IMG/VR virus record: IMGVR_UViG_3300025137_000023
Location: 1-64,000 of that record
Source of the DNA: a virus
Length of the DNA: 64,000 nt
Reading direction: 5' to 3' (one strand)
A program made the translations under genes and the position numbers. The notes beneath the pieces were generated by a model. It did not search any database, had not been told where the DNA came from, and saw only the letters and a program-made list of their open reading frames with translations. Shown piece by piece: positions 1,670 through 61,275 of this stretch; within the stretch, counting starts at the first letter, position 1; each line of letters begins with the position of its first letter.

Positions 1670-2356
1670 CTATCTAGGAGCGAACTCCTGTTGTAGTTTG
1701 ATGTTATCCATGAACTCTTTTTTAGTGCCCATGTCTTCATTAAAAGCACCGTTAAGAACAGTAGTCTGTGTTAAACTACTGTGAGCCCCAATGCCTCTGT
1801 TCTCACAACAACCATGTGTTGCTTGAATATAAACACCTACGTTAGGACTTCCAGTTGCTGTCATTATCTCTTTAGCAATTACATTATTAAGTTCTTCTTG
1901 TAATGTTCCACGTCTTGCACACCATTGAGCAATTCGTGTATATTTAGATAAACCTATTAATTGATCTGCCGCGATAATTCCAATATATGCTACACCACTC
2001 ACTGGTTGGTGGTGATGAGAACACATACTTTTAATTTCACTTCTTACAACTAACATACCTTTATAACCATCTTCAACATGATTAGGAAATGCAGTTGCAT
2101 TAGGCATAGGATCATATCGTCCTGCCATTAGTTCATTGATATACATTTTAGCAAGTCGTCTGCCAGTATCCATACTATTGGGATCATTGTATCTATCGAT
2201 AACTAATCCATCTAATACTGATTCAAACTTTGGCGTAAGTTCATCGATAAGTTTCTGCTTATCGCCATCGTTTAAATACTTGCTAATATTATCTCCAGCC
2301 CAATGACGTCCGTTATCGGACTGAATTCTTTTTATTATTTCTTCACTTATAGTCAC
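1670..2356 (-). CDS. folE: GTP cyclohydrolase I
   Basis: Converts GTP to 7,8-dihydroneopterin triphosphate, the first step of both folate and 7-deazaguanine (preQ0) synthesis. The 228 residues are full length. Zinc and catalytic residues are present: C112 and H115/H116 in KSMCSHHHQP, H181 and C183/C184 in ATHGCCENRG, with SKYTRIAQW in between. The start is GTG with AGGAG 8 nt upstream. Phage FolE usually belongs to a deazaguanine pathway or supports nucleotide synthesis; the DpdA-like gene 5.4 kb upstream in the same orientation favours the former, by inference. Confidence 0.95.
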   Translation of the reverse strand: MTISEEIIKRIQSDNGRHWAGDNISKYLNDGDKQKLIDELTPKFESVLDGLVIDRYNDPNSMDTGRRLAKMYINELMAGRYDPMPNATAFPNHVEDGYKGMLVVRSEIKSMCSHHHQPVSGVAYIGIIAADQLIGLSKYTRIAQWCARRGTLQEELNNVIAKEIMTATGSPNVGVYIQATHGCCENRGIGAHSSLTQTTVLNGAFNEDMGTKKEFMDNIKLQQEFAPR

Positions 2357-2402
2357 TTTTTCTTCTCCTAGTTATACACGGCGAGACGTGTGTTATTGTT
2401 AT

Positions 2403-2432
2403 AGTTTACTACCTTATTTAGGTAAATGTCAA
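2403..2432 (-). promoter_or_regulatory. weak sigma70-like promoter upstream of folE
   Basis: TTGACA (2427-2432) and TAAACT (2403-2408) have an 18-nt spacer. The -10 is poor. The -35 overlaps the TGA stop of the upstream gene (TTGA), as also happens at 5180. Confidence 0.4.
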
Positions 2433-2632
2433 CCAAAATATTTGTTCAACATTTCAAGTCTATCATGTGCAGTTGCCATCTTATCCAATTCTTTTTGAAT
2501 TGTTTCGATAATATCGGAATGTTCTCCAATTCCTACAACCTGTTGCATATATACTTCAATGTTGGCTTTATGAAGATCAATTTCTGCGTCGGCGTGTTTT
2601 TTAGCCGCATCAATTAGTGTTTGTCTCAACAT
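2429..2632 (-). CDS. hypothetical helical protein
   Basis: 67 residues, apparently all helix with heptad-like spacing (LIDAAKKHADAEIDLHKANIE). AAGGATCTT precedes the ATG, and the start overlaps the stop of the HIT gene by 23 nt. Conserved-looking but unrecognised. Confidence 0.55.
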   Translation of the reverse strand: MLRQTLIDAAKKHADAEIDLHKANIEVYMQQVVGIGEHSDIIETIQKELDKMATAHDRLEMLNKYFG

Positions 2633-2984
2633 AAGATCCTTTCCTGTAGTTGCCTTGTTCAGGAATAACGTGTCTTACGCCACCCCTGGGATCATCCATA
2701 TCGCCTTTGCGACGTGGAATCAAATGTATATGCGGATACTCGACAGTTTGTCCTGCTTCAACTCCAACATTTTGTCCAATGTTAAAACTGTCACAGTACT
2801 TTCTATCGACCCAATCGTATCCCCATTTATACGCCGCCTCCCAACACTTAACCATATGTTGCCAGTCTGCGACCTTAGGCACAAATAAAATGTGTCCTTC
2901 GGTTACTGGGTAGCCATCCTTAAAAACCGTAAATCCTTTAGCATCAAGTAAAATATCTTTCCATGGAATGTCTTTAAACTCCAT
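2610..2984 (-). CDS. HIT-family nucleotide hydrolase/transferase
   Basis: 124 residues from the preferred ATG at 2984 (AGGAAAG upstream); a longer form from 3035 is possible. GHILFVPK forms the strand before the active site, and the histidine triad appears as YPHIHLIPRR, a reduced H-x-H version of HxHxHxx. HIT proteins hydrolyse NMP-linked substrates such as Ap4A or AMP-lysine. The first histidine being replaced by Y/P leaves catalysis uncertain. Confidence 0.75.
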   Translation of the reverse strand: MEFKDIPWKDILLDAKGFTVFKDGYPVTEGHILFVPKVADWQHMVKCWEAAYKWGYDWVDRKYCDSFNIGQNVGVEAGQTVEYPHIHLIPRRKGDMDDPRGGVRHVIPEQGNYRKGSYVETNTN

Positions 2985-4068
2985 CAACACTTTCCTTAAT
3001 TGTTTTATAAAGTTTTGTACCGTTAAAGAAATCATCTAATCTTGTTTTAAGCATATCATTTACGTCTTTATACTGTTCAAAATTTTCCATCATATCTTTA
3101 ATTTTGTCTGTTACTTCTGTAGGACTTTTTTCAAACCCTTCTAGTGTAACAGTTAATGCACTTGCATACTTCATTTCATCTGGATACATTTCAAAATAAC
3201 TTAATCTATTTGGTACTAATGGTAATGTATCAACCAAACAACCTTCGTATGCACTAATACCTAATGTTTCTTGTAAGTTAGCACTGAATACAATTTTTGC
3301 TTTACCTAGTAGTGTATGATATTCGTCTTTAGTAAGTTGTTTATCTTGACATACAACAAATTCATATTCTGGTAACAGTTCTTTTAGTTTAGCAAATATT
3401 TCAGGATTCTTTTCAGGTGCTACTCGATGTGGAAACAATATAATGTTTTCTTTCTTAATACCTTCATATGGCTTTAGTGTATCTTTTAAATACTCCATGG
3501 GCCAACCTACAATATGCATCTTACCTGTTTCTAAATTTTGATCAATATCTTTTGTATCAGTTAAGAAACTTTGTGCAAATAAATCTACATGGAAACGTGT
3601 AGCAAAGTAATTGTGATCATAACATTCAAACATACTTGCTTCTGCATAACGTACCCAAGGTTCAGCACCTATAAGTCTACCTAAAAAGTCTGCTGGATCA
3701 TAACTGCCGGCGTGCCACATACCACCAATTTTAATATTAATACCTAGTAGTTTTGCCATATACTTTAATTGTATAACAGTAGGATTCCAAGCATCAGTAT
3801 ACAGAAAGTAATCACCATCTTTAACTTTACCACTTGCTACCATGTCTGCTATTTGTAACATTTGCTGACTCTTATAACTGTTAGTTCCAGCAAAGTTTAA
3901 GAAAGCACCAGGCGTTGTTGTTTGAGGGACATCTCCTCCACTAATAACTTCTACGTTGTAATCTTCAGTACCTAAGTACTCAGACATTTGTATAGGTAAA
4001 TGTTTCTTCCATTGAGCCGTATATCTTGTTTCGACTGGCTCTAAGTCTACTATGTATATTGTTTTCAT
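2974..4068 (-). CDS. GT-B fold glycosyltransferase (GT4-like)
   Basis: 364 residues from ATG 4068; an ATG at 4077 is an alternative. The C-terminal half has the GT4 nucleotide-sugar signature: FPHRVAPEKNPEIF, then SANLQETLGISAYEG (the E-x7-E region) and PLVPNRLSYFEMYP. The N-terminal half lacks a signal peptide, so it acts in the cytoplasm. Phage GTs of this type may glycosylate modified DNA bases or virion proteins. Its position between folE and the DpdA-like gene makes DNA glycosylation thinkable but unproven. Confidence 0.8.
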   Translation of the reverse strand: MKTIYIVDLEPVETRYTAQWKKHLPIQMSEYLGTEDYNVEVISGGDVPQTTTPGAFLNFAGTNSYKSQQMLQIADMVASGKVKDGDYFLYTDAWNPTVIQLKYMAKLLGINIKIGGMWHAGSYDPADFLGRLIGAEPWVRYAEASMFECYDHNYFATRFHVDLFAQSFLTDTKDIDQNLETGKMHIVGWPMEYLKDTLKPYEGIKKENIILFPHRVAPEKNPEIFAKLKELLPEYEFVVCQDKQLTKDEYHTLLGKAKIVFSANLQETLGISAYEGCLVDTLPLVPNRLSYFEMYPDEMKYASALTVTLEGFEKSPTEVTDKIKDMMENFEQYKDVNDMLKTRLDDFFNGTKLYKTIKESVDGV

Positions 4069-4069
4069 A

Positions 4070-4450
4070 TTACTCATGTTCTCCACCAGGGTCGTTAGCC
4101 GGTAGGTTATATTTGTAAGGGTTACCTTTTTTATCCCTTAGGATCACATAGCCACGACCTCTGCCATATGAATGGTATCCTTTAATAAAGTTAAAAGATC
4201 CTGGACTACGTTCAGCGACCTTAAAAGTTGCTACAGTTATTACTATACCTGCAACAAACACCATATGTCCAATAGCACTAACACCAAATGCCCATACACT
4301 ATCTACAATTAATATTGCAAATATAGATGACCACATAAATGCTAGTATCTGCATCATCATATGTCTTACTTGCAAATCTGGAATATGTCTTAATGGGTTT
4401 TTGTTATGATCCATTATGCAGTTCCAAGATTCATAAATAAACTGCCTCAT
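4070..4450 (-). CDS. two-span membrane protein
   Basis: 126 residues with two hydrophobic helices (about residues 30-75) and a polar C-terminal domain rich in Gly/Arg (YHSYGRGRGYVILRDKKG). Start and stop overlap its neighbours (TAATG). No recognised family. Confidence 0.6.
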   Translation of the reverse strand: MRQFIYESWNCIMDHNKNPLRHIPDLQVRHMMMQILAFMWSSIFAILIVDSVWAFGVSAIGHMVFVAGIVITVATFKVAERSPGSFNFIKGYHSYGRGRGYVILRDKKGNPYKYNLPANDPGGEHE

Positions 4451-4656
4451 TACTTTCTGTAATTCCTTCTCATAGCCTTACCATCTCTTATCCATTGATT
4501 GTAAGGGCGTCTTTTGTTGGCAATACTTTTTTGCATATGCCCCCAAGGACTACTGTTGCGATCCAAATCTGCTTCGCTAAACGGATAACCGTTACTAACG
4601 CAGAACTGCCTATATTGATCAAGTCGATCAAAAATCTGCTCCATATGAGCCTTCAT
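4450..4656 (-). CDS. hypothetical small protein
   Basis: 68 residues, aromatic and basic at the C-terminus (RRPYNQWIRDGKAMRRNYRK). AAGGATT lies upstream of the ATG. Function unknown. Confidence 0.5.
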   Translation of the reverse strand: MKAHMEQIFDRLDQYRQFCVSNGYPFSEADLDRNSSPWGHMQKSIANKRRPYNQWIRDGKAMRRNYRK

Positions 4657-4661
4657 TGTGA

Positions 4662-5123
4662 TTAATCCTTCTTGTAATCATACTCTATTTGTGAACCATT
4701 TTCCCCGTCTTCACTAACTTCGATTTTCACAGAACGTTCGGGGTAACGTTCGCTAATTTGTTTAAATAGGTCATCACTTATCATTTCGCAAGACTTATAA
4801 TCAAGTTGTATAACATCTTCTTTATATAAGTTTTCTAACCAACGTTTAAATTGTATAAACTCTATATCTCTATCATCATGGAATACTTCGATAGCCACTT
4901 TAAAATGAAATATATGTCTATGCGGGTATCCTAAAAAACTAACATCATATTCGTCGCCAGTTGCTAGTTTAGGATCTTCTAATGCCGCAGGGTATTTATG
5001 AATACCTTCTTTTTTAAATGTTACCCAAATCATCTTACTTGAGTTTTGTAACTGCTTCTCTGTTGCGTCTTTAATAGCCGCCGCTCTCATTTCACTTATC
5101 ATATAATTATAATATTGCCCCAT
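4662..5123 (-). CDS. conserved phage protein, possible T-fold (QueD/PTPS-like)
   Basis: 153 residues. Middle and C-terminal parts show H68-R-H70 in a strand (PHRHIFHFKV), then DIEFIQFKRWLE, then a strand ending in EVSEDGENG. This order resembles 6-pyruvoyl-tetrahydropterin synthase/QueD (HxH zinc ligands, 'xDFxxLKxxL', 'VxVxET'), but the third zinc histidine and catalytic Cys are not evident. If it is a T-fold enzyme it would pair with FolE in deazaguanine synthesis; otherwise unknown. It has its own sigma70-like promoter. Confidence 0.4.
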   Translation of the reverse strand: MGQYYNYMISEMRAAAIKDATEKQLQNSSKMIWVTFKKEGIHKYPAALEDPKLATGDEYDVSFLGYPHRHIFHFKVAIEVFHDDRDIEFIQFKRWLENLYKEDVIQLDYKSCEMISDDLFKQISERYPERSVKIEVSEDGENGSQIEYDYKKD

Positions 5124-5154
5124 CCATATTGACCTTTACAGTTGTTATTGTTAC

Positions 5155-5183
5155 AGTATACATAAAAACTCTAGTAAAGTCAA
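5155..5183 (-). promoter_or_regulatory. sigma70-like promoter
   Basis: TTGACT (5178-5183) and TATACT (5155-5160) are 17 nt apart on the minus strand, with AAAGG before the ATG at 5123. The -35 overlaps the TGA of the DUF465-like gene. Confidence 0.7.
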
Positions 5184-5356
5184 GATTTACTTTTACTTAT
5201 TAACTCTTTAATTCTTAATTTTTCTTTCTTAAGTGCCAACAATTCTGATTTGCTTTTCCAACCTCTGTCGCCATTTCTAAGTTGTTCTGCTTCAGTTACT
5301 TGTCTTTTTAGATCTTTATGTTGTTTTCTAAGATCATCTGTTGTAGTTGCTATCAT
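5180..5356 (-). CDS. DUF465/YdcH-like small helical protein
   Basis: 58 residues starting at ATG 5356 behind a strong GGAGG. The pattern LRKQHKDLKRQVTEAEQL followed by LALKKEKLRIKELI matches the two-helix hairpin of the DUF465 (YdcH) family, whose role is unknown. Confidence 0.6.
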   Translation of the reverse strand: MIATTTDDLRKQHKDLKRQVTEAEQLRNGDRGWKSKSELLALKKEKLRIKELISKSKS

Positions 5357-5373
5357 TGTTTCCTCCTTAGGAT

Positions 5374-5928
5374 TTATTCAATGAATGTATCACCTGTGTA
5401 CTTGTCCCAATCCGAAAAGAATCGAGATTGTATAGCATCATCTAATGGCATACACCATACACCTGGATTTGTCTTGTTAAAGTCTACATCATCGAATTTT
5501 ATTGTGGCATTATGGCTATTCATATTCCATTGTTTCCAATAACCAAGTTTCAAACTCATCATAGGAATAAACTTCCTACTTTCAGTCCAGCCCATTTGTA
5601 ACATATCGTTACCATAAGTCATTAAATCAAAGTCTAGTGTTACCCACATATGAGCATCTAATAGACCTTTAATATAAGTGTCCCATGTCTTCCAGTCTTC
5701 GTCTGTTTTAGGAACAAACGTTGTGCCAGTTCCTAAATAGATATGAAATAGTTGAAGGTCTTTTGCATGATCCAAAGTTTTTTGTAAATCTTGTATACCA
5801 CATACAAACAAAGTTTGTTTACCATACATAGGAGTCTTCTCAACTTCTTTGTTCATAAAGAACTTTGCTTTATCAGTTGTAATAGTTCCACCGTCTTTAG
5901 TAGAATATGTTCTCATCATTTGTTTCAT
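5374..5928 (-). CDS. conserved phage protein of unknown function
   Basis: 184 residues, alternating alpha/beta. Notable stretches are VTLDFDLMTYG and DDVDFNKTNPGVWC, which read like an active-site region but match no enzyme I know. It overlaps the MDR dehydrogenase gene by 4 nt (ATGA) and lies in the DpdA-like gene cluster, so a linked role is possible. Confidence 0.6.
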   Translation of the reverse strand: MKQMMRTYSTKDGGTITTDKAKFFMNKEVEKTPMYGKQTLFVCGIQDLQKTLDHAKDLQLFHIYLGTGTTFVPKTDEDWKTWDTYIKGLLDAHMWVTLDFDLMTYGNDMLQMGWTESRKFIPMMSLKLGYWKQWNMNSHNATIKFDDVDFNKTNPGVWCMPLDDAIQSRFFSDWDKYTGDTFIE

Positions 5929-6890
5929 GTGTTACCCTCTTGTTGCTTAACAATAGCCTGAGCTCGTTGCTCTTCGTATATCTTAAACATATGTTTCTCC
6001 CAAGTAATATAACCTCTGCTATATCCTATAGGTCTTTCTGAACCATCTTTAAATGCATTCTTCCAATCTATTTCTCTACTATAACTCTTTGTCCAAAAAC
6101 TATTAACATTTAATATACCATTAAAAATCATATTAACTGCATCTGTCATACAAAAATGAAAGTTTGGACTTCTAGGACTTGGAAATACCATACTTGCATT
6201 CTTCCAAAGTAAATTACTAAACGTTGTAGTGATACCTTTTTTCTCTGCCGCTAATACTACAGTTGCATTTTCATTTAATATATCTTGATCAAATACAAGT
6301 GTACTATCATCTTTTAAATCAATTACGATATCATACTTGCCATCGGGTTTATCCATTAACCTATCTTCCCAAAACTTTCTATTACTAGAACCTATTACAT
6401 TTATTTGATAGTTTGTATCTAAAGAATGTAACTTTTTGTATACCACTGTTGCTAGAAAGCCACTACCAATAATTAAAATACGTGGATCTTTAAGAATGTT
6501 TAGTTTGTCTATAATAGACATAACAATATTAAGACCACAAGCCACAGGCTCTACAATGTATTTAGGTTCAGCAGTAGGTACCTTTACATATTCCTGAGTT
6601 CTTACATTATAGTAATCAGCATAAGCAGGTTCACCTCTAGTAGCAACAAAGTCTCCTATACTAACATCATTAATATCTTTTCCTACCTTAGTTACTTGTC
6701 CTAGTCCTTCGTGTCCTTGCATATGTATTGGTAATGGACCAAAATTTCCATGCATCATATCAATATCACTTCTACAAACTCCAGTCATTAATGCCTTAAC
6801 TTCTATTTCACTAGAATTTATATCTGGCTTATTCCATTCGACTTCTTCGAATTTACCATTACCTGTTGTTTGTAATAGTTTTACTAACAT
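5925..6890 (-). CDS. medium-chain (MDR) zinc-type dehydrogenase
   Basis: 321 residues from ATG 6890 with GGAAG upstream; a GTG further upstream is less likely. C39 and D42 (GVCRSD), H60-E61 (QGHEGLGQV) and SIGDFVATRGEPAYADYY give the catalytic zinc domain. ILIIGSGFLATVVY is the Rossmann dinucleotide loop. The structural-zinc four-cysteine lobe is absent. It would oxidise an alcohol or sugar with NAD(P)+. The gene overlaps the next oxidoreductase, and the two probably act in sequence. Confidence 0.85.
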   Translation of the reverse strand: MLVKLLQTTGNGKFEEVEWNKPDINSSEIEVKALMTGVCRSDIDMMHGNFGPLPIHMQGHEGLGQVTKVGKDINDVSIGDFVATRGEPAYADYYNVRTQEYVKVPTAEPKYIVEPVACGLNIVMSIIDKLNILKDPRILIIGSGFLATVVYKKLHSLDTNYQINVIGSSNRKFWEDRLMDKPDGKYDIVIDLKDDSTLVFDQDILNENATVVLAAEKKGITTTFSNLLWKNASMVFPSPRSPNFHFCMTDAVNMIFNGILNVNSFWTKSYSREIDWKNAFKDGSERPIGYSRGYITWEKHMFKIYEEQRAQAIVKQQEGNT

Positions 6891-7759
6891 AGTTCTTCCA
6901 TTTGTTCGTGTATCCACATATCTTTTTTAAATTGATCTTCCCAATAAGTATCATTATGCAGGTTTTTCAGTCCAATGTCAATCATTCTTTTATATGCATC
7001 TTCTGGACATAACCCTAATTCTACACGTTCTACGTTACCTAGTATCTCAAAGTTCATACCAATATCATCATATAAATCAGTTTTCCAGTTAGCGATTAGG
7101 TTGTAATCGCAGAACTTTGTTTTAAATGTCATACCTGCTTCATCATCTACATCATATATACCTAAAGGATCTGCTACGCCGTAATCTGTATCAAGTAGTT
7201 CTTTTAATTTCCAATTACTTTTTGCTATCTTATCTGATGGAGGTGTTGTTTCGTAATTAGGATTGAATACTTGATACAGACTTAACAAGTGAGGAAGTAG
7301 GTCTCTACTTACACCACCGTATGCTAATTCTTTTGTTGTAAACCAAGAACCTGGATTAGGTACTCTATTTTTATTACACCAATTAATATCTACAACTCTA
7401 CTAGTTCTTGCCATATTGGCATACTCGTCAATGTTGTGTCTATATTGATTGTTCTTAACCATAGAGATTCTACACTCTGGAAAGTCATAATGTAAATCTG
7501 CCCATGCTTTACTAGATTCTAGTCCGGGCTTTTCAATAAACATTAAATGACACCATGGTGCAATAAATCTTGCTATGTCTTCGTGTGTATCATTTGGTGT
7601 ACAGATATGTACTGTATCATACATATCAATTGGAACTTCTTCAATAGTTCTAAAGTTTGCTGGTCTTTTAGGATCTACTGTTACAACGTCAATACCCATT
7701 TCTGTAAGTACTTTCATGTACAGTTGCCCTATACCCATTCCAACTATTAAACTTCTCAT
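6884..7759 (-). CDS. Gfo/Idh/MocA-family oxidoreductase
   Basis: 291 residues from ATG 7759 with AGGA 6 nt upstream. The N-terminal Rossmann loop is LIVGMGIGQLY; EKP (76-78) is the hallmark lysine motif, and GGVSRDLLPHLLSL matches the G-G-x3-D-x3-H active-site helix. These enzymes act on sugars or inositols using NAD(P). Together with the MDR enzyme and the GT it forms a small sugar-chemistry module. Confidence 0.85.
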   Translation of the reverse strand: MRSLIVGMGIGQLYMKVLTEMGIDVVTVDPKRPANFRTIEEVPIDMYDTVHICTPNDTHEDIARFIAPWCHLMFIEKPGLESSKAWADLHYDFPECRISMVKNNQYRHNIDEYANMARTSRVVDINWCNKNRVPNPGSWFTTKELAYGGVSRDLLPHLLSLYQVFNPNYETTPPSDKIAKSNWKLKELLDTDYGVADPLGIYDVDDEAGMTFKTKFCDYNLIANWKTDLYDDIGMNFEILGNVERVELGLCPEDAYKRMIDIGLKNLHNDTYWEDQFKKDMWIHEQMEELC

Positions 7760-7766
7760 AATTTTC

Positions 7767-9230
7767 CTATGTAAATAAATTACTAAATTGTGCAGAACTG
7801 TTAACTGTCTTTTTGCCAACTGCTCCACGTGTACCAACGACTTTCATCCATAGTTTAGTATGTTCGTCGATAAGTGCTAGTGCTTTTTCTTTGCTATCTA
7901 ATTCAAATACTCTTGCAATAACATCTTTAACTTCACGTTTGTCAAATGTATCGTCTACAAGCATATTAGGATAATTGCCTTTATCATATTCTTGATTAGC
8001 AATCTGTACACTATTAATATGTGTGTATACGTTATGATTCATCATTAATGCATATGCAAAACTATCCCAACTAGTTTTAGTACTGACACCCATTCTGTTT
8101 ACATCATTAGGACCATATATACAAATATCATTTGCTTTTAATCCTTTTGTAATAGGAGTAGGCATCCATGTATGTCCATCTACTTGACTGAAATGTGCAT
8201 CACATAATTCATCATATGGAAACGTTTGTGTACTGTATGCTTTGTCATCTGGTGCACTAGACATCATATAACTCCACTTTTCATCTTGTACAGTTCTGTG
8301 TCCTGTATAAACTTGACCATTAGCAGTACATAGAAACGGACTAGCACAATCAAATGTTACAGTAAAGTTTTCATTATGATTCTTTCTAATACCACGTTGT
8401 ATTGCAGTAAGTACTAATGCCCATTCTAATTTACTTGTACCTAAGAAGTGCATTACATCATGTTTACCTTTTTCAAGTAAACCATCAAAACGAAGTTCTA
8501 CTACACGTTTCAATGCAAGATGTAAGTCACACATATTTTGTCCACCCATTGCCCAGCCATTAAAGTGTGCGTCAGGATATACTTTAGGATCACAATAGTG
8601 TTTCATCTGATTGTACCAATCATCTGCTTGTTGAAAGTTTTCACCTTGTAATACGTTTAAGAACTTACAATTACCATTTCTGTTCTTAATAAAATATTCG
8701 TTATTTTGTTGTGTGCCTTCTACTGCTTCTTGATACGAACTAATCTTACTTGCCGCGGCTCCTTCTGGAGAACGAGAAACCCAAGCCGGAATATCTAAAA
8801 TCATTCCGTAGTCCATAAATTTATCCATCCATCTTAAAACACCATCACGTTTTTTCTGTGCTTGTGGACAGCCACTGCCTTTACGCCAATCGCCTTCCCA
8901 CTTACCTTTACCAATCTGGAAGCCACCTGAATCACCAAGTAACCAACTAGTGTTTTTATCACGAACACGATACATATCTTCACGATACATATCCTTTACT
9001 AAATCTAGACTGGCGTGTCCTGCCGAGTGTAAACTCCACTTGTAACGCCATAAGCCCTCTGGTGCCAACCAGTTAATACTTTCTACGCCATGTTGTAAGA
9101 AACTTGGAACACGATTATAATCAATATACTCGTGTCTACGTTGCCTACCTACAAATAATGCATAAAAGGTACTGAGTGCCGGCAAAAAGAGTGCATAGTC
9201 TTTTTGTTCAGATGTAAGGTCTAGTTTCAT
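7767..9230 (-). CDS. tRNA-guanine transglycosylase-fold protein, DpdA-like
   Basis: 487 residues. D100-SGGFQ matches the base-binding DSGGFQ loop of TGT enzymes; NVLQG (192-196) matches GIVQGG; GWAMGG (225-230) matches GYAIGGL; D294 in TFDCASPF matches the nucleophilic Asp (FDCVxPT). Residue spacing is close to bacterial TGT (D102, D280). TGT swaps guanine for a 7-deazaguanine base in tRNA; phage members called DpdA do this in DNA. The lack of the usual C-terminal zinc cysteine set and the phage setting favour DpdA. The exact base inserted is unknown. Confidence 0.8.
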   Translation of the reverse strand: MKLDLTSEQKDYALFLPALSTFYALFVGRQRRHEYIDYNRVPSFLQHGVESINWLAPEGLWRYKWSLHSAGHASLDLVKDMYREDMYRVRDKNTSWLLGDSGGFQIGKGKWEGDWRKGSGCPQAQKKRDGVLRWMDKFMDYGMILDIPAWVSRSPEGAAASKISSYQEAVEGTQQNNEYFIKNRNGNCKFLNVLQGENFQQADDWYNQMKHYCDPKVYPDAHFNGWAMGGQNMCDLHLALKRVVELRFDGLLEKGKHDVMHFLGTSKLEWALVLTAIQRGIRKNHNENFTVTFDCASPFLCTANGQVYTGHRTVQDEKWSYMMSSAPDDKAYSTQTFPYDELCDAHFSQVDGHTWMPTPITKGLKANDICIYGPNDVNRMGVSTKTSWDSFAYALMMNHNVYTHINSVQIANQEYDKGNYPNMLVDDTFDKREVKDVIARVFELDSKEKALALIDEHTKLWMKVVGTRGAVGKKTVNSSAQFSNLFT

Positions 9231-9242
9231 TAACTAACCCCT

Positions 9243-9974
9243 CTATTTAGATTGTGCTGGAAGGATATAATCGTAAGCAATCATTCCGCTGTCTACAGAA
9301 ATCATACTAGCACCCTCATCTGAGAATCGCATAGTAATCTCGCCTGGAAGACTTAGAATACTAATTACTTGTTGCACGGGCCACTGCCAACCATGTTTCA
9401 ATGTACCAGTAATATCTGGTTGAAAAACAAAGTTACCTGCGTGTGTGCTATGGTCACCAAAGTAAAACTTTAAGTTGCCATCTTCTGTTTTAGCGATAAA
9501 AGTAGTTTCTTCGCTATGTACCTGTGCCTGCATCTTCAGTCTTTGTACTGCCGCTACAGTAGGTTTAATTTCAACGTTCCAGTTAACGCCTTTAAACTTA
9601 ACAGTCTTAAGTTTATCATTAATAACTTCGCTTGTCATAAAACGATAGTCATTTTTAAAGTCGCCTCTTACGTTTTCAAAATACAATCCAACTGGCACTT
9701 CTGCACCGTTACGTTCTTGTTTGCTGATTGTAATTTTTGCATCTTCCTTATATTCTTGAATACCAAGTAAGATTGCTAGTTTGCTTAAATTCGGCATACC
9801 GAATGTTCCCATAAACTCTGCGTATGGGCTTTTTAGTTTAGCCTGTACAATAACACTTCTGTCATCTGCTAAACCTTCAATATTTGTTTCAGTATCACTA
9901 CCGTTAACTTTAATTAAATCAATAAAGCCTAGGCTGTGTGTATGCTGAACAATATCATTTAGATAGTCTTTCAT
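9243..9974 (-). CDS. 45: DNA polymerase sliding clamp (T4 gp45-like)
   Basis: 243 residues, the usual length for marine T4-like gp45. FGMPNLSKLAILLGI and the C-terminal DYILPA match the clamp family. The trimeric ring tethers gp43 to DNA and, in T4, activates late transcription through gp55/gp33. It lies next to gp43 and has its own strong promoter and GGAG. Confidence 0.9.
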   Translation of the reverse strand: MKDYLNDIVQHTHSLGFIDLIKVNGSDTETNIEGLADDRSVIVQAKLKSPYAEFMGTFGMPNLSKLAILLGIQEYKEDAKITISKQERNGAEVPVGLYFENVRGDFKNDYRFMTSEVINDKLKTVKFKGVNWNVEIKPTVAAVQRLKMQAQVHSEETTFIAKTEDGNLKFYFGDHSTHAGNFVFQPDITGTLKHGWQWPVQQVISILSLPGEITMRFSDEGASMISVDSGMIAYDYILPAQSK

Positions 9975-10037: not shown

Positions 10038-12698
10038 CTACTCAAAACTAAATAAATCGTTAAATTTAGTAGCAGTATTAGAGTCTAACGTTAGATCCCA
10101 CTCTAAAACATCTAGTAAATTGTTAATCTTACTGTCAATTACTGTACTTTCCATAGCACCATCATCAAACGGTAATTCTTTAAACCACTGAGGTAAATGA
10201 GGTTCATCTGTTGGATAAGCCACACTAGTATAACCCAGTGGATTTGCCTTTAGTTTACAAACAATAACTTTAGCACCATCTTTAATTTCTGTGCTATACC
10301 TGTCACTGTTCATTTTACGCAATCTATTCCAGTTCATACTTGCTCTAACGTGTCCTGGCATATTTGCTTTCCCAAGTCTTTCTTCAAGTGCTTGAAACTT
10401 TGTCATATTGTTAGCACGTCTTGGACTTCCTTTTTCCCAAGCCGGACGTAACATAAATTCTTCTTTAAATACTTTTACTTTTTCAAGTGTTTCATCTCTA
10501 CCAAGTCCAGTAAGTACACCTTGTAACACATCACTTAAAAAGTTCTGTACAATCTTAGGTGTATCCGAACGTTTAAGATCAAGTCCCATTGCTTTAATCT
10601 TACCTGGACTATCTCCTGTATCTGTTCTGTAACCTTCCATGTCATAGATTAGAACTGCATATCTTTTCTTTGTAATAAACAATCCTTTAGTAGCAACCAT
10701 TTCTCTACCACCAACAATAATCTCTCCATTCTCTCTAGGAGCATTAAAAGCCTTTTTCATAAAGTTAGGAAAACTCTGGTTAACATTATCTGCAATTTGA
10801 TCATACAATGCAATACAAGTTTCTTTGTTCCATTCTAGTTCACCCTTTTCAACTTTGTCTTTAAGTACGGGCCATGCACTAAAATAAGCAGAGTCAGTAT
10901 CACCATATATAATAGTTTTACCTCTGTGATCATATTCACCTGTCAGACATTCATTAACATATGCGTCCATGTGTTTAGCAATACTTCTACCACATAGTGT
11001 TGTACTCTGACCAATACGTTTATCAAAGAATCTACAACCAGGATTAAGAATTGCACCATATAAACTGTTCAAGTTAATCTTTTTAACAAGTTGTCTTTTA
11101 TCCCAGAACTGTTTTTCTTCTGGAGAAGTTGCACTTGCTTTTACTTTTTGTATGTCTTGTCTTTCTCTATACCAACGTGCTAGTAGTCCAGGAACAACTC
11201 CTTCTTTCTCTGAATTAAAGATTGTACCATTTGCACTTAACATCCACGGTTTGTTACTTAAAAATATAAGTTTATAGATTTCTTTACCAGACATTATATC
11301 ATGAGAACCATCTTCCCACTCGAGAACTATTTCTTTATCAATGTCTTGTGCCATAACTAATTCATATTCAATACTACCAAACATACCTTCCCAAGCATCT
11401 GCAAACGACTTTTTATCATCCATACTACTTTTGACGTGTGTGTTTGTATAGTCAGGACGTAACTGTCCTACAATAGTTTCGTTTCCCATATTAAGGGCTC
11501 TAATAGCCGAAGGATACAAACTGTTAATATCAATACTACCTATCCAATCATGCAATCCTTTTTGAGGATATGCCACGTAAGCACCAGCCGCCTGTGTATG
11601 TCCAAGTTCATCTCTACTCTTACGACTTGGTACTACTAGTCCTTGTTCGTGTGCTTCATTAATAATTGCTTGTTCTGTAACTGCAACTGCACCCATTGTT
11701 GTTTGTAATAACACTGTATTAGAGTGTGCTAGTTCACTACTCAATTCCATAAACTTTAGTTTCTTATCAAGTTTATCTAGTAGTGCAGTATCCTGTCTGG
11801 AGTAATCAATAAACTTTTCAAAGTCATTGTTATATAACTGATCAAGTGTTCCTTCATACTGAACCTTACGTTCATCTAGTTCGTATTCACCGATAGCATC
11901 TAAACTGTAACTGTGCATTTCATGATATGTATATTTTCTATACAGTTGCATATAGTCCATATGCACTCTTCCAATAGTATCAAATGTTAATGTTTCTGCA
12001 CCAAATCTTTCAAACGTTCTTGGCTTAGGATATGCTCCCCATAAACAAAAACGTCTTGTATCATCTTTACTTAACACACGTTTAACTCTGTTTACTAGAT
12101 AAGGAATATCATAACCTTCACTGTTCCATCCTGATAAAATATCAGCATCATCAATTAGTGTTAAGAATGTATCAAGTAATTGCGACTCTTCTTCAAAGAA
12201 GAAACAGTTTTCAAACTTCTCACATATCTTTGTGGATTCTTCTTTATCCATATACTTAGGTGGAATAGCCAACGTAATAAGTTGATCAGTCCATTGCAAG
12301 TATAAAGATATAGCAGTTACAGGATTAAAAGGATCTTCCGGAGGACTAAATCCACGTTCGCTGTCAAAGTCAACCTCAATATCAAAGAAACAAGTATTCA
12401 GTTTCGGTGCATCTTGCCCGAGGTAGTTTTCTTCTAATATGCGGAATACAGGATTAAAATCACTTTCATAAAGTTTCTTTTTGCCTACGAGCTTTAGTTC
12501 TCTACGGAAGTCTTTAATTGTACGGCATTGAATCCTGCTTACAGGATTGCCGTGAATACTTTTATGCTTTCCTTTCGGATCGTCATAGTAAAATATATAT
12601 TTTGCGGGATAATCACGATACTCTCTTTTACCGTGTTTGTTTCGTTCTACGATTTGTATTAAGTCTTTTTCTCTGTCAAAGAGTGCGTCAACGTACAT
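10038..12698 (-). CDS. 43: family B DNA polymerase (T4 gp43-like)
   Basis: 886 residues. Exonuclease residues: D106-I-E108, N192/D197 in SGWNSEGYD, D303 in YSRQDT. Polymerase motifs: DINSLYPS (A, D390), KKINLNSLYG (B, 539-548), YGDTDS (C, 598-603). All catalytic residues are present. The C-terminal FNDLFSFE resembles the T4 clamp-binding peptide. No intein or split is seen. It replicates the phage genome with gp45 and gp44. Confidence 0.97.
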   Translation of the reverse strand: MYVDALFDREKDLIQIVERNKHGKREYRDYPAKYIFYYDDPKGKHKSIHGNPVSRIQCRTIKDFRRELKLVGKKKLYESDFNPVFRILEENYLGQDAPKLNTCFFDIEVDFDSERGFSPPEDPFNPVTAISLYLQWTDQLITLAIPPKYMDKEESTKICEKFENCFFFEEESQLLDTFLTLIDDADILSGWNSEGYDIPYLVNRVKRVLSKDDTRRFCLWGAYPKPRTFERFGAETLTFDTIGRVHMDYMQLYRKYTYHEMHSYSLDAIGEYELDERKVQYEGTLDQLYNNDFEKFIDYSRQDTALLDKLDKKLKFMELSSELAHSNTVLLQTTMGAVAVTEQAIINEAHEQGLVVPSRKSRDELGHTQAAGAYVAYPQKGLHDWIGSIDINSLYPSAIRALNMGNETIVGQLRPDYTNTHVKSSMDDKKSFADAWEGMFGSIEYELVMAQDIDKEIVLEWEDGSHDIMSGKEIYKLIFLSNKPWMLSANGTIFNSEKEGVVPGLLARWYRERQDIQKVKASATSPEEKQFWDKRQLVKKINLNSLYGAILNPGCRFFDKRIGQSTTLCGRSIAKHMDAYVNECLTGEYDHRGKTIIYGDTDSAYFSAWPVLKDKVEKGELEWNKETCIALYDQIADNVNQSFPNFMKKAFNAPRENGEIIVGGREMVATKGLFITKKRYAVLIYDMEGYRTDTGDSPGKIKAMGLDLKRSDTPKIVQNFLSDVLQGVLTGLGRDETLEKVKVFKEEFMLRPAWEKGSPRRANNMTKFQALEERLGKANMPGHVRASMNWNRLRKMNSDRYSTEIKDGAKVIVCKLKANPLGYTSVAYPTDEPHLPQWFKELPFDDGAMESTVIDSKINNLLDVLEWDLTLDSNTATKFNDLFSFE

Positions 12699-36568: not shown

Positions 36569-37297
36569 TTGGGCAAACGTAGACACAGAAAAGAAGAATA
36601 TATGTATATCTCACAAGATAATCACTATAATAACACTGCACGACATAAAAAACAAGTCAATATAATTCCTAGAAGTAGAACGCAGGAATCCTATGTAGAT
36701 GCATTACTCACGTCAAATAAGAGTATTGTATTTGCTTCAGGACCAGCAGGAACGGGTAAAACCCTTATTGCTATGCTTTCGGCTATTAAACATTTTAAAC
36801 AAGGAGAAGTTGATAAAATTATTATGACCAGACCAGCAGTTGGTGTAGATGATGAGAAACATGGATTCTTACCAGGTGATCTCAACCAAAAAATGGAACC
36901 ATGGACTCGTCCATTGTTCGATGTTTTACACGAATATTACTCTCCTAAAGAAACAGCCAAAATGCTAGACGAACAAATCATCGAAATATCACCCCTAGCA
37001 TTTATGAGAGGTCGCACATTTAAAAATGCATATATCGTCGCAGACGAAATGCAAAATGCAACGCCAAATCAGATGAAGATGCTATTGACCAGAATCGGCG
37101 AAGGAAGTAAAATTGTTGTAACCGGAGATGTTAAACAGACTGATCGAAGTAATAAAGACAACGGCTTATTAGATTTCATGAAACTTGTACAAACAAAAGA
37201 TTCAAAATATATTGAATGTGTACAATTTTCACATAATGATATTGAACGTCATCCAGCAGTAACGGAGGTATTAGCAATTTATGGTGATAATGATTAA
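36569..37297 (+). CDS. phoH: PhoH-like ATPase
   Basis: 242 residues. P-loop GPAGTGKT (58-65), then VADEMQNATPNQMKMLLTRIG and VTGDVKQTD, all diagnostic of PhoH. It is widespread in marine phages and tied to phosphate stress in hosts, though its activity (RNA-linked ATPase) is unsettled. The start is probably TTG 36569: AGGAGG lies exactly 6 nt before it and the basic N-terminus MGKRRHRKEE fits; ATG 36602 is the fallback. One of few plus-strand genes. Confidence 0.95.
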   Translation: MGKRRHRKEEYMYISQDNHYNNTARHKKQVNIIPRSRTQESYVDALLTSNKSIVFASGPAGTGKTLIAMLSAIKHFKQGEVDKIIMTRPAVGVDDEKHGFLPGDLNQKMEPWTRPLFDVLHEYYSPKETAKMLDEQIIEISPLAFMRGRTFKNAYIVADEMQNATPNQMKMLLTRIGEGSKIVVTGDVKQTDRSNKDNGLLDFMKLVQTKDSKYIECVQFSHNDIERHPAVTEVLAIYGDND

Positions 37298-37311
37298 GTA
37301 AATTTTATAAT

Positions 37312-37330
37312 GTAGTGTTCCGGACACTAC
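37312..37330. terminator. hairpin between convergent phoH and transporter genes
   Basis: GTAGTGT/ACACTAC, 7 bp with a 5-nt loop, 15 nt after the phoH stop. A second imperfect stem (TGGGTG...CACCCA, about 37360-37380) serves the other strand. Neither has a clear U-tract. Confidence 0.5.
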
Positions 37331-37384
37331 TGCTATGAATACTGTATCGGTGATTATGGGTGAGCCGAAACCCACCCACTATCT

Positions 37385-38347
37385 TTAAAATCCGTTTGGT
37401 ATTAATACATAGTGAATTGTAATAACAATACCTACTGATGCTAACAATCCTGTTATCATCTTAAGAAAGTCTTTGCCAACTAAAGGAAATACTACTTTTA
37501 GTTTTCCATTGCCTAGCATAGTTGCCATTGCAAGTTCACGTCCACATAATAGTCCAACAAATACCCATGTTGTTGACATTGGGATATCATTGAGTTCTTT
37601 AAAGAACCAAAGCACTAACCAATAAAACAAATCAATTAACGTTGCACTTCTTACATATCTTGTATTGTGCTTTTCTAATACAATTTGTTGTATTTTTCCT
37701 CCACGTTCTCTAAACATAAAGAACAAGCCTATAACAAACACAAGGCTTATCATAACCATTAATTCAAAGTTTACTTGTCTTGGCAGGAATACGGCAATGT
37801 TTGCCATGTCATGACTTAACCAAGTCCACCATAAAAAACCAGTAGTTACCCATTGACCAACTCGCCAATATACTTTGTGTTTTTCTTTTACAGGGTCGTG
37901 CTTTTCATCTATAAATTTAGTTATAACAATCCATATGGCATAAGCCGCCACTGCCGCGACTGCATAACCCATAATAGATTTCATTAACATTTTTTCTAAT
38001 ACAAATGTACTAGCAAATGCCGACAATACTAAAAATGATGTACTAACAGGAATACCTACCCTTGTTAGTATTAAAAGTAAAGCAGGTGCCATTGCATGAT
38101 ACCATTTTACTTCTTGCCACGGTATCCTATTAAGACGTCCGTATGATATATCTCCTCCATTCACTGTCCAGCCATACCATAAGGCCCAAAGCAAAACCGC
38201 CGATGCGGCGATCCATAAAGTTTTCCAATTAAATTTTTCGTTGTTTGATGCAATCCATGTACCGAGAGTTTGTACTGAATCGTTTGCGATAACTGAATAA
38301 GCGGCTAGTAAAAAACCTACACCCATCCAAAGTGTTAATGCGTCCAT
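37385..38347 (-). CDS. PiT-family phosphate transporter
   Basis: 320 residues from ATG 38347 (GGAG 7 nt upstream). Two inverted PiT signatures are visible: ANDSVQTLGTWIAS near the N-terminus and SHDMANIAVFLPRQ in the middle, plus IPMSTTWVFVGLLCGRELA near the end. Eight or more hydrophobic helices. It would import phosphate by ion symport in the host inner membrane. The convergent neighbour is phoH. Shorter than bacterial PitA (about 500), near archaeal sizes. Confidence 0.88.
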   Translation of the reverse strand: MDALTLWMGVGFLLAAYSVIANDSVQTLGTWIASNNEKFNWKTLWIAASAVLLWALWYGWTVNGGDISYGRLNRIPWQEVKWYHAMAPALLLILTRVGIPVSTSFLVLSAFASTFVLEKMLMKSIMGYAVAAVAAYAIWIVITKFIDEKHDPVKEKHKVYWRVGQWVTTGFLWWTWLSHDMANIAVFLPRQVNFELMVMISLVFVIGLFFMFRERGGKIQQIVLEKHNTRYVRSATLIDLFYWLVLWFFKELNDIPMSTTWVFVGLLCGRELAMATMLGNGKLKVVFPLVGKDFLKMITGLLASVGIVITIHYVLIPNGF

Positions 38348-57987: not shown

Positions 57988-58266
57988 ATGTATTTAGGTT
58001 ATACATTTATTAAACAGTGGCATCAACGACAGCAGAAATCAGTCAAACGTAATCTTCAAGTTTACGCCTTAATGTGTGATAATTGTTTCAACCTTTTCTT
58101 AAGAAGTTCAAAAAACATTAGCAAAAGTCGATTAAACAGATGGGTTAATCATTACTGCGGATCCTGTGGAGACGTTTATAAACTTGCACAAAAAGATAGT
58201 GCATTACGAAAGAGGACATTAAAATATGACGCGAGTTCAACAATGCCTATTAATCGTTTGCGTTAG
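57988..58266 (+). CDS. basic zinc-ribbon-like protein
   Basis: 92 residues, strongly basic. CDNC (about residue 30) and CGSCG (about 57) could hold one zinc ion. The C-terminal part overlaps the protease gene by 41 nt. No Shine-Dalgarno. Possible nucleic-acid binding; unknown function. Confidence 0.55.
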   Translation: MYLGYTFIKQWHQRQQKSVKRNLQVYALMCDNCFNLFLRSSKNISKSRLNRWVNHYCGSCGDVYKLAQKDSALRKRTLKYDASSTMPINRLR

Positions 58267-59317
58267 TTTCTTTACATTTTGTGGCTGGACTTCAGTTGCA
58301 AATAGTAGTTTACCAAACATTGAAAATAATTTACATTCAACTGTTTTAGTTGCTACTAAAAATGTAACACCGAGACTGGACGAAACTACACATAATATGG
58401 CTCCGGTTCCAGCACCGGATATTACGAATCCTGGAATGGGAACAGGTATTATTATGACTGATAAAGGTCATATTATTACTAACTACCATGTTGTTGAAAA
58501 GGGCAATACAATTTCTGTATGGATGTATGAAGATGAAACTATGACAGAATATGATGCAACTATCGTGGGCTTCGATAAACTGTCTGATATAGCAGTTATT
58601 AAAATTGATTTACCAAAAGATTACAATTTTAAAAAAGTAGAATGGGGAAGATCACCTGATTATGGTGATGATATCTATGTAATAGGGCATCCACAAGGAA
58701 TGATATGGAGTGTGAGTAAAGGAGTTGTTAGTCATCCTAAAAGATTTGTAACATCACCTTGGCAAACACTTATTCAATCTGATGCTTTAATAATGCCTGG
58801 TAATAGTGGCGGTCCACTCTTTGACCACCATGGTGATTTAGTAGGTATAAACACTCTTATGATTTTGAGTCGTGATCCAACTGCCAAGACCCAAGCATGG
58901 GCAATGAGTATTCATTTAGATGATGTGAGATGGGTTTACGACAGAATAATTGAGTACGGTAGAGTACGAAGACCTGCTTTAAACATCGAAGTTGATTTCG
59001 ACGTTGAGAATAAGTTGGTAAAAATAAAGGCTGGACCGGACACCGCATTAGGAAAGTTAGGAATGAAAGAATCTTATCTTTTAGAAATTGACGGAATAGA
59101 GGTCAAAGAATATGGCGACATCTTTAATTACTTAAGAAGTAAATTAGATGGGGATACTGCTATTATTAAGGTTAAAGAGTTAGAATCAGGAGAGGTTAAG
59201 TCGCTAACATTCAAATTAGCGGATTGGGAGGCTTTACAGTCTAATAAGGAAAAAGATAAAGTGTTGGAGAAAGAAGAGGAACTAGAAATACCACATGGTA
59301 TTCCTTCGCCTAAGTAG
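58226..59317 (+). CDS. secreted DegP/HtrA-like serine protease
   Basis: 363 residues. Signal peptide to about residue 26, then a chymotrypsin-fold domain with H88 (NYHVV), D121 (LSDIAVIK) and S194 (GNSGGPL), followed by a PDZ-like domain (about 245-335) and a charged tail. It would act in the host periplasm. GAGG precedes the ATG. Phage-encoded secreted HtrA is unusual. Confidence 0.9.
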   Translation: MTRVQQCLLIVCVSFFTFCGWTSVANSSLPNIENNLHSTVLVATKNVTPRLDETTHNMAPVPAPDITNPGMGTGIIMTDKGHIITNYHVVEKGNTISVWMYEDETMTEYDATIVGFDKLSDIAVIKIDLPKDYNFKKVEWGRSPDYGDDIYVIGHPQGMIWSVSKGVVSHPKRFVTSPWQTLIQSDALIMPGNSGGPLFDHHGDLVGINTLMILSRDPTAKTQAWAMSIHLDDVRWVYDRIIEYGRVRRPALNIEVDFDVENKLVKIKAGPDTALGKLGMKESYLLEIDGIEVKEYGDIFNYLRSKLDGDTAIIKVKELESGEVKSLTFKLADWEALQSNKEKDKVLEKEEELEIPHGIPSPK

Positions 59318-59320
59318 AAT

Positions 59321-59650
59321 TTAAAATCCTACAGATTCTCCACAACCACAAGAACTAGTGGCTTGGGGGTTTTCGATTACAATTTGAGAGCCTCCAAAGT
59401 CTTCTTTGAAGTCTATTACACAACCCATAAGATAAAATAAACTTACACCATCAATAATTAAATTTTTAACTTCATTTAATTTTATTAAGTGATCTTTAGG
59501 ATTGATTTCTTCTGTTTTGATTGTAGACCAGTCGTATTTGAATCCTGCACAACCTCCACCTTTAACTCCAAAGTGTACATTCGTGGCATCATTCTTATCA
59601 GCCATTGTAATTAAATAATCTTTAGCGGAATCTGTGATAGTCGGTAACAT
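59321..59650 (-). CDS. A-type Fe-S carrier (IscA/SufA/ErpA-like)
   Basis: 109 residues from ATG 59650 (GGAG 9 nt upstream). GGGCAGF (C34) and SCGCGES (C101, C103) give the three conserved cysteines. It carries Fe-S clusters to target proteins. It overlaps the SufT-like gene by 29 nt and is convergent with the protease gene. Confidence 0.92.
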   Translation of the reverse strand: MLPTITDSAKDYLITMADKNDATNVHFGVKGGGCAGFKYDWSTIKTEEINPKDHLIKLNEVKNLIIDGVSLFYLMGCVIDFKEDFGGSQIVIENPQATSSCGCGESVGF

Positions 59651-60050
59651 ATTCATCTTCTCCTGTGTCTCCGTCTAGGTTAAGTGTCATTTGTGCTAGT
59701 TCACTCATTTGTGATGGGCTAAACGTAGGTTCAAATGTCATCTCAACTTCTACTTCGTTAATACCAGGTACTTTTAATAATGCTTCTTTTGTCCATATTG
59801 GCATTTCGCCTGCTACTGGACAAAAAGGACTTGTAAGTGTCATAAGTGTAATACATTTACCATCTATAACATCACAATGATATATTAATCCTAGCTCAAA
59901 TATATTTATACTGATTTCGGGATCGTATACTTCGCGAAGTTCTTTTTTTATGTCTTCTTGTTTTACGTTTTTATCTTGAATTTCTAGATTAAAACTTCCG
60001 TCTTCAGACGCACTACGGTTAAAATCTTTTACTGCAATAGTACTGCTCAT
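59622..60050 (-). CDS. SufT-like (MIP18/DUF59) Fe-S maturation protein
   Basis: 142 residues. EVYDPEISINIFELGLIY is the DUF59 start, and TLTSPFCPVAGE carries the conserved C77. The end FEPTFSPSQMSELAQMTLNL fits. SufT helps Fe-S cluster insertion. A strong hairpin precedes the gene. Confidence 0.9.
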   Translation of the reverse strand: MSSTIAVKDFNRSASEDGSFNLEIQDKNVKQEDIKKELREVYDPEISINIFELGLIYHCDVIDGKCITLMTLTSPFCPVAGEMPIWTKEALLKVPGINEVEVEMTFEPTFSPSQMSELAQMTLNLDGDTGEDEYVTDYHRFR

Positions 60051-60837: not shown

Positions 60838-61275
60838 TTAACGCCTCATTCTTGCCAATTCCTTGGCATCTTCGTCGCTAAATACGGGCACTAGATTGCT
60901 TTTGTGCATAGTTGCTATGCCTAACAAACGTCTTTCACCACTATATTGCATAGGTTTTCTTGCCTTGCATGGTGCAAACGTTTTTTCTGAAATAACACTA
61001 GGATAATCTGCAATAGTTTCTCTTTTATAGTCTCCTGCAGACTCGTGCCATGGTGTATTCAAAACTGGTTGTGTTTTTGGTTTATAGTTACCTTGTGTGT
61101 AATCTGTGTATTCTTTTAAATTCATTACTAAATTAGGACACCCAAGTTTTTTCATATACTTGTTGTGTTCTCGCATTTGTACTTCAAGTTTTGAAATCTT
61201 ACTTTCGGTAAGTTTTTTCTTTTTTCTTTTTTTAGTATTTAGAGTTGTAAGTCCTCTATCTAAATGCATTGTCAT
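60838..61275 (-). CDS. conserved marine phage basic protein
   Basis: 145 residues. MHLDRGLTTLNTKKRKKKKL and RRLLGIATMHKSNLVPVFSDE are stretches typical of marine T4-like phages. AGGA precedes the ATG and the start overlaps the radical SAM stop (ATGA). Function unknown. Confidence 0.65.
   Translation of the reverse strand: MTMHLDRGLTTLNTKKRKKKKLTESKISKLEVQMREHNKYMKKLGCPNLVMNLKEYTDYTQGNYKPKTQPVLNTPWHESAGDYKRETIADYPSVISEKTFAPCKARKPMQYSGERRLLGIATMHKSNLVPVFSDEDAKELARMRR

Follow-up and report, generated by a model that had tools for sequence, protein, structure and literature searches.

The window analysed here comprises 64,000 nucleotides, positions 1 to 64,000 of the IMG/VR virus record IMGVR_UViG_3300025137_000023, an 83,290-base fragment with a broken end. 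Its source is an uncultivated T4-like phage whose relatives extend further. It is established that phage DpdA inserts deazaguanine into DNA and thereby protects it against restriction (PMC6884629). A first-pass annotation of the window had proposed a 7-deazaguanine DNA-modification cluster at 1670-9230 around a DpdA-like transglycosylase, and the observation of this gene cluster is confirmed. On the minus strand, downstream of a sliding-clamp-like gene, lie genes for a protein resembling tRNA-guanine transglycosylases (TGT), a GFO/IDH/MocA-like oxidoreductase (GFO), a zinc alcohol dehydrogenase (ADH), a 184-residue protein (hyp5374), a 153-residue QueD-like protein, a glycosyltransferase (GT), a HIT-domain protein and FolE. 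All open reading frames were found at the positions and in the orientation claimed, with the likely starts of the GFO and GT genes now placed at 7747 and 4065. Every member named before is present; the conserved small gene hyp5374 had been overlooked and is part of the set. The features are:

1670-2356, minus strand: FolE, GTP cyclohydrolase I, first step of the pathway (PF01227, E=3.6e-37; phrog_2197, E=7.8e-42)
2610-3035, minus strand: HIT-domain protein, overlapping the end of the GT gene (Pfam HIT, E=1.5e-8)
2974-4065, minus strand: proposed GT-B/GT4-like glycosyltransferase (EX7E and R..EK motifs, linkage)
4662-5123, minus strand: QueD-like, probably T-fold protein of 153 residues, phrog_17812 (PHROG match, invariant residues)
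5374-5928, minus strand: hyp5374, phage-specific small protein of 184 residues (linkage, AlphaFold2 model)
5925-6917, minus strand: zinc-dependent alcohol dehydrogenase of the medium-chain dehydrogenase/reductase type, optional module (Pfam ADH_N, motifs)
6884-7747, minus strand: GFO/IDH/MocA-like oxidoreductase, optional module (weak Pfam match, EKP motif)
7767-9230, minus strand: predicted DpdA-like TGT-fold guanine exchange enzyme of 487 residues (motifs, AlphaFold2 and Foldseek, hhalign against DpdA2)
9243-9974: sliding-clamp-like gene (sequence and synteny)
10038-12698: DNA polymerase (sequence and synteny)

The 487-residue product of 7767-9230 contains the DSGGFQ, VLQG, GWAMGG and FDCASP motifs noted earlier. 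D100-S-G-G-F-Q105, G196, G230 and D294 are invariant across 23 homologues with identities down to 28%, so that the two marks of the TGT superfamily, the DSGG motif and the nucleophile Asp (D294), are kept throughout. An AlphaFold2 model built from 20 sequences of the protein's own lineage is confident (predicted local distance difference test, pLDDT, 90). In a Foldseek search of the PDB its five best matches are all bacterial or human TGTs (E 8.7e-7 to 4.7e-5) and the sole ones under E=0.001, with modest TM-scores of 0.34-0.43 by query length. The TGT barrel expected by the first-pass annotation is thus borne out, and the modelled protein is a predicted TGT-fold enzyme. Neither Pfam, including the TGT family PF01702, nor PHROG gave a match, the NCBIfam tgt_general match is marginal (E=0.018), and the CxCxxC zinc-binding motif of canonical tRNA TGTs is absent in 23 of 23 homologues. 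In hhalign the profile of phage DpdA2 (nt-1-type) aligns with the DpdA-like profile (88%, E=2.8e-6, 194 columns), collinear from DSGG through the nucleophile Asp, while an unrelated GT profile used as negative control gave E=0.55. The single DpdA2 sequence of ACP17 aligned with E=4.7e-5; individual sequences from nt-1, X1 and CAjan gave no usable score. Searches by tblastn with the DpdA2 of nt-1 and ACP17 did not list cultured members of the DpdA-like family, and the reverse search gave the same result. The family profile found no match in nt-1, nor in CAjan, 9g, Dp-1, Campylobacter phage CP220 and HVTV-1, the set used for comparison with DpdA1, DpdA3 and DpdA4. PDB sequence profile searches with DpdA, GT, the QueD-like protein and hyp5374 yielded nothing useful. 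Judged by its sequence relationships, the product of 7767-9230 is a putative divergent DpdA subfamily without the CxCxxC zinc motif, and it is predicted to insert deazaguanine into DNA.

FolE is real, and QueE and QueF are indeed missing from the window. It had been suggested that the pathway would use host enzymes or genes elsewhere. QueD and QueE are encoded in longer relatives, and since both are missing through truncation of the contig only, nothing points to a dependence on host enzymes. In the relative G002 true QueD (PF01242) and QueE are direct neighbours (36793-38075), some 10 kb further on than FolE, a position that corresponds to the region past the end of the 83-kb contig. The QueE of the relatives is related to that of Paride, and QueF is absent in all relatives searched except Vibrio phage 2.275.O. 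A radical S-adenosylmethionine (SAM) protein of the SPASM/twitch type at 61272-62288 of the window (minus strand) was considered as QueE and rejected, having no match to phage QueE. The proposed search of the remaining genome for QueC, QueE and QueF turned up a divergent QueC-like PP-loop protein just outside the window (genome 65553-66140), with the motifs SGGxDS (SGGADS) and C(x)8CxxCxxC (CEAKQPPRPCKECWWC). The canonical QueC catalytic signature includes YPDC and VPxRN (PMC13329287), neither of which was seen in this sequence, and the main Pfam match is confined to the model's C-terminal end instead of its full length. Several relatives gave weak QueC-like matches as well; Paride and Phosso gave none. 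Because the QueC-like protein does not have the full signature and is weak and patchy in the relatives, canonical QueC is outside the conserved gene set.

The protein at 4662-5123 had been described as a possible T-fold QueD-like protein. Similarity to QueD is retained at the C-terminus, where hhalign aligned the two over 44 columns only, but the protein belongs to a separate family (phrog_17812, E=5.5e-36). Its identification as QueD was rejected, as it has no PF01242 match and no Cys four residues before HxH, the position of the catalytic Cys in QueD, and the family coexists with true QueD in relatives. H42, H68, H70, C112 and E138 are invariant in the family. The three His residues could be zinc ligands, and E138 looks like the substrate-binding position of QueD. 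As the His and Glu residues are kept while the Cys at the catalytic position is absent, the pattern suggests an enzyme that works on 7-carboxy-7-deazaguanine (CDG) through a different reaction than QueD. FolE is present in every checked phage that has the QueD-like gene. Eight phages have the QueD-like gene without QueC above the cut-off (Paride, Phosso, ACP17, RHph_I1_18, X1, phiST, Bakedbeans and BUCT-ZZ01), and six have QueC without it (2.275.O, PhiXhv-12, nt-1, CAjan, pf16 and Moby). The two exclude each other, with a Fisher P=0.0003 that is indicative only, since the 14 phages were chosen by hand. We propose that the QueD-like protein may process CDG in place of QueC. Reportedly, Cui et al. 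proposed in 2023 a CDG decarboxylase, DpdL, as a phage enzyme that uses CDG where QueC is lacking. Such a distribution, which includes Cellulophaga phage phiST, is shared by the QueD-like family, and its identity with DpdL is a lead, not a result. In Vibrio phage Bakedbeans (L116:6182-7360) the QueD-like domain stands behind a fused N-terminal region of about 250 residues.

Linkage was counted in scans of viral contigs anchored on GT, hyp5374 or the QueD-like gene, each independent of DpdA, at loci with enough flank and with partners within 8 kb. As the best 80 matches were taken per scan, the scans sample one broad clade. The 31 GT-anchored loci contained DpdA in 30 cases, the QueD-like gene and FolE in all, hyp5374 in 28 and QueE in 27. 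DpdA and GT were found at all 44 loci anchored on the QueD-like gene (FolE at 43), and DpdA, the QueD-like gene and GT each at all 32 anchored on hyp5374. hyp5374 itself stood near DpdA in 33 of 34 loci. One gene order predominates among about 268 loci, namely DpdA-(GFO-ADH)-hyp5374-QueD-like-GT-FolE-QueD-QueE. The DpdA-like gene has the sliding clamp and DNA polymerase as direct neighbours at nearly all loci. Conservation of gene order on this scale excludes chance. Recurrence in unrelated phages, for which 50,697 phage records were searched, is the stronger test. Only 25 of these records contain the QueD-like family and 19 contain GT, and the DpdA, GT and QueD-like families recur together in the unrelated phages PA5oct/Paride and Phosso. 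In Paride DpdA, GT and the QueD-like gene stand together and GFO-ADH-hyp5374 lie elsewhere; FolE, QueD and QueE are also encoded. With DpdA2 as the insertion enzyme the orders are QueD-FolE-hyp5374-DpdA2-GT-QueD-like-QueE in ACP17, FolE...GT-DpdA2-QueD-like-QueE in X1 and QueE...QueD-FolE-GT-DpdA2-QueD-like-GT in BUCT-ZZ01. Since GT and the QueD-like gene also occur with DpdA2, GT tracks the chemistry and not one DpdA lineage, and both genes accompany deazaguanine insertion whichever DpdA serves.

Further genes recur in the operon. A phosphoribosyltransferase gene is found inside it in 120 related loci (e.g. L048:8148-8699, and L124:3736-4194 in BUCT-ZZ01); its product might return the guanine set free by DpdA to GMP and so recycle it towards GTP and FolE. 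Genes for IMP dehydrogenase (IMPDH)/GMP reductase recur in 11 loci. A transporter of the Vut_1 family (COG1738, YhhQ-like) lies in the operon region of 14 related loci (e.g. L175:3119-3718), mostly with the QueD-like gene on one side and GT on the other; YhhQ itself is known to transport preQ0.

The glycosyltransferase has donor-site motifs, with EX7E in 22 of 22 aligned members and R..EK in nearly all, and the Pfam Glycos_transf_1 match is weak (E=8e-4, below the cut-off). We propose that 2974-4065 encodes a GT-B/GT4-like glycosyltransferase. In the named phages examined GT is always accompanied by a TGT-like gene, and this GT is absent from 9g, CAjan, nt-1, Moby, Dp-1, HVTV-1 and CP220, deazaguanine phages that have no QueD-like gene. 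In BUCT-ZZ01 two glycosyltransferases (L124:5653-6993 and 8644-9807) flank DpdA2 and the QueD-like gene. The HIT-like family is a recurrent neighbour, located between GT and FolE/QueE in 91 related loci. Both oxidoreductases of the first-pass annotation are present, the ADH with an ADH_N match (E=1e-10) and the motifs CRSD, GHE and EPVAC, and the GFO with an EKP motif and a GFO_IDH_MocA match below the cut-off (E=0.0028). The two occur as an optional pair in the approximately 268 loci; in Paride an ADH homologue lies between the GFO and hyp5374 homologues. Among the phage records GFO and hyp5374 were found at blast level only in the 11 PA5oct-group phages. The AlphaFold2 model of hyp5374 (pLDDT 90) has no PDB match under E=0.001, and its only significant match in a viral fold library is an ACP17 protein. 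In ACP17 the hyp5374 homologue stands immediately before DpdA2. Bacterial homologues of hyp5374 were confined to five contigs of metagenome-assembled genomes (MAGs), which are probably phage because four of the five also contain DpdA, QueD-like and GT genes. The operon is also contained in L365, L366 and L368, MAGs labelled Pacearchaeota, Euryarchaeota and Neomarinimicrobiota; these are unlikely hosts, and the contigs are probably misbinned phage.

The interpretation of the first-pass annotation is therefore largely supported, and we favour, with a probability of roughly 0.6, a phage DNA-hypermodification operon in which deazaguanine is inserted by DpdA and then glycosylated. That deazaguanine enters DNA at all is very probable. 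From gene content, fold, motifs and linkage we infer the following chemistry, the sugar most tentatively. FolE, QueD and QueE, the last two encoded past the contig end, would convert GTP to CDG. The QueD-like protein, instead of QueC in the named phages, would act on CDG, possibly as a decarboxylase. Once the phage DNA is replicated, the TGT-fold DpdA would replace guanine in it by the 7-deazaguanine so formed, and the GT4-like enzyme would put a sugar on this base or on a group placed there. Suitable attachment points at C7 would be a carboxyl, hydroxymethyl or amino group, and the oxidoreductase pair could make such a group; hyp5374 and, in a subset, this pair would contribute to tailoring. 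With the modified base, sites that contain guanine would be protected against host nucleases. The further sugar-type elaboration suggested before is strengthened by the finding that GT tracks DpdA across unrelated phages and two DpdA subfamilies; it is gene linkage that points to the sugar itself, for which we see an even chance.

Several observations weigh against this model. The T-fold of the QueD-like protein is unproven, because its alignment with QueD is limited to the C-terminal 44 columns. The phage of the window and several relatives encode a QueC-like PP-loop protein, and hence preQ0 may be the base. Were the QueD-like protein a plain decarboxylase, its product would lack an obvious group at C7 for O-glycosylation. 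DpdA could also insert a simple deazaguanine (7-deazaguanine, CDG or preQ0) while GT and the oxidoreductases serve a surface glycan, another base or a small molecule. We consider this unlikely, albeit not to be dismissed lightly, as all the DpdA-side evidence fits it equally. Three named phages (RHph_I1_18, phiST and Bakedbeans) have the QueD-like gene without GT, which is thus not essential to the base. In many relatives sugar-nucleotide genes lie between GT and FolE, in some for an NAD-dependent epimerase, a UDP-sugar dehydrogenase or an aminotransferase; they could supply the sugar or be part of something else, and as they could form a glycan pathway GT may belong to an unrelated glycan. 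However, GT remains linked to DpdA and the QueD-like gene across two DpdA subfamilies and six unrelated phage groups, and in Paride, Phosso, ACP17, X1 and BUCT-ZZ01 it stands beside DpdA or the QueD-like gene rather than in a glycan cluster.

The TGT fold, and the use of FolE and QueE for tRNA queuosine as well, would also fit a TGT-like protein that acts on tRNA, in a queuosine-type modification or to boost host queuosine. This is very improbable given that the gene directly adjoins those for the sliding clamp and DNA polymerase at nearly all loci and that all 23 homologues lack CxCxxC, which in TGTs belongs to the zinc site. Moreover, the closest characterised profile is that of phage DpdA2, whose phage nt-1 has deazaguanine in its DNA (PMC6884629), and no QueA, QueG or QueH was found in the viruses analysed by Hutinet 2019 (PMC6884629). 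FolE is common to folate synthesis (PMC6884629), and FolE and the QueD-like protein might serve folate or pterin metabolism with the TGT-like gene as an incidental neighbour; this scarcely credible alternative is largely refuted by the conserved order with the CDG-specific QueE in most long loci and in Paride, ACP17, X1, Phosso and BUCT-ZZ01.

Other modification genes were noticed in more distant phages. In Xanthomonas phage PhiXhv-12 (L120, record 115739-124144) a distant GT stands beside a PIG-L deacetylase and a Gat-QueC fusion that is misannotated as glutamine-fructose-6-phosphate aminotransferase. The same run of genes also encodes a GNAT protein and a Leu/Phe-tRNA-protein transferase, and there is a weak DpdA-like match at another place in the genome. 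The run possibly makes an amino-sugar, aminoacylated archaeosine-type base. Stenotrophomonas phage Moby (L126:3505-4755) has an inositol-3-phosphate synthase between FolE and QueC/DpdA2, possibly for a different decoration. Several of the T4-like relatives (G001-G008 and G014) contain 4-15 radical SAM genes each, far above the phage norm and often clustered (e.g. G003 123-162 kb, G014 45-60 kb). In the window, adjacent SufT-like and A-type Fe-S carrier-like genes at 59321-60050 (minus strand) could support radical SAM enzymes, and on the opposite strand an HtrA/DegP-like serine protease, uncommon in phages, is encoded at 58226-59317 (plus strand). A UvdE-family UV endonuclease lies at L001:14540-15565 (minus strand), corresponding to genome 78039-79064.

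Phage DpdA2 systems such as that of Vibrio phage nt-1 (Hutinet et al. 2019, PMC6884629) resemble the present operon in combining a TGT-fold protein with FolE, QueD and QueE; they differ in that here QueC is replaced by the QueD-like protein in the named members, and GT and hyp5374 are added. For the jumbo phage PA5oct a deazaguanine synthesis and incorporation system was predicted (Iyer et al. 2021, PMC7824862). With Paride as representative, it shares the DpdA family, FolE, QueD and QueE, whereas GT, the QueD-like protein and GFO-ADH-hyp5374 find no mention in the part of that paper covered here. All of these are annotated as hypothetical in Paride, and the words deazaguanine and queuosine are absent from the Paride paper. 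In the open-licence literature, which does not cover Cui 2023, we found no earlier report of the GT module and nothing specific on glycosylated deazaguanine in DNA. The glucosylated hydroxymethylcytosine of T4 is likewise a modified base decorated by a phage glycosyltransferase, it is thought after replication, but the base and its route of entry, here transglycosylation, are different. In eukaryotic tRNA, glycosyl-queuosine arises when a GT-B enzyme puts a sugar on a 7-deazaguanine nucleoside; the likeness is drawn without sequence comparison, the substrate there is RNA rather than DNA, and no queuosine cyclopentene genes were seen here.

To our knowledge, the C7 substituents of the deazaguanine DNA bases described so far are all small (cyano, amido, carboxy, aminomethyl and similar). 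A deazaguanine that bears a sugar would, if true, be a new class of DNA base that conceals guanine's major-groove face from nucleases, the deazaguanine counterpart of T4's glucosylated hydroxymethylcytosine, and it would account for a gene set annotated as hypothetical in cultured phages. The chances are balanced that a widespread T4-like lineage and jumbo phages such as Paride have glycosylated 7-deazaguanine DNA, made through a QueC-independent CDG branch with a dedicated GT and hyp5374 and, in some, two oxidoreductases. As Paride, PA5oct, ACP17 and X1 are cultured, the question is directly testable.

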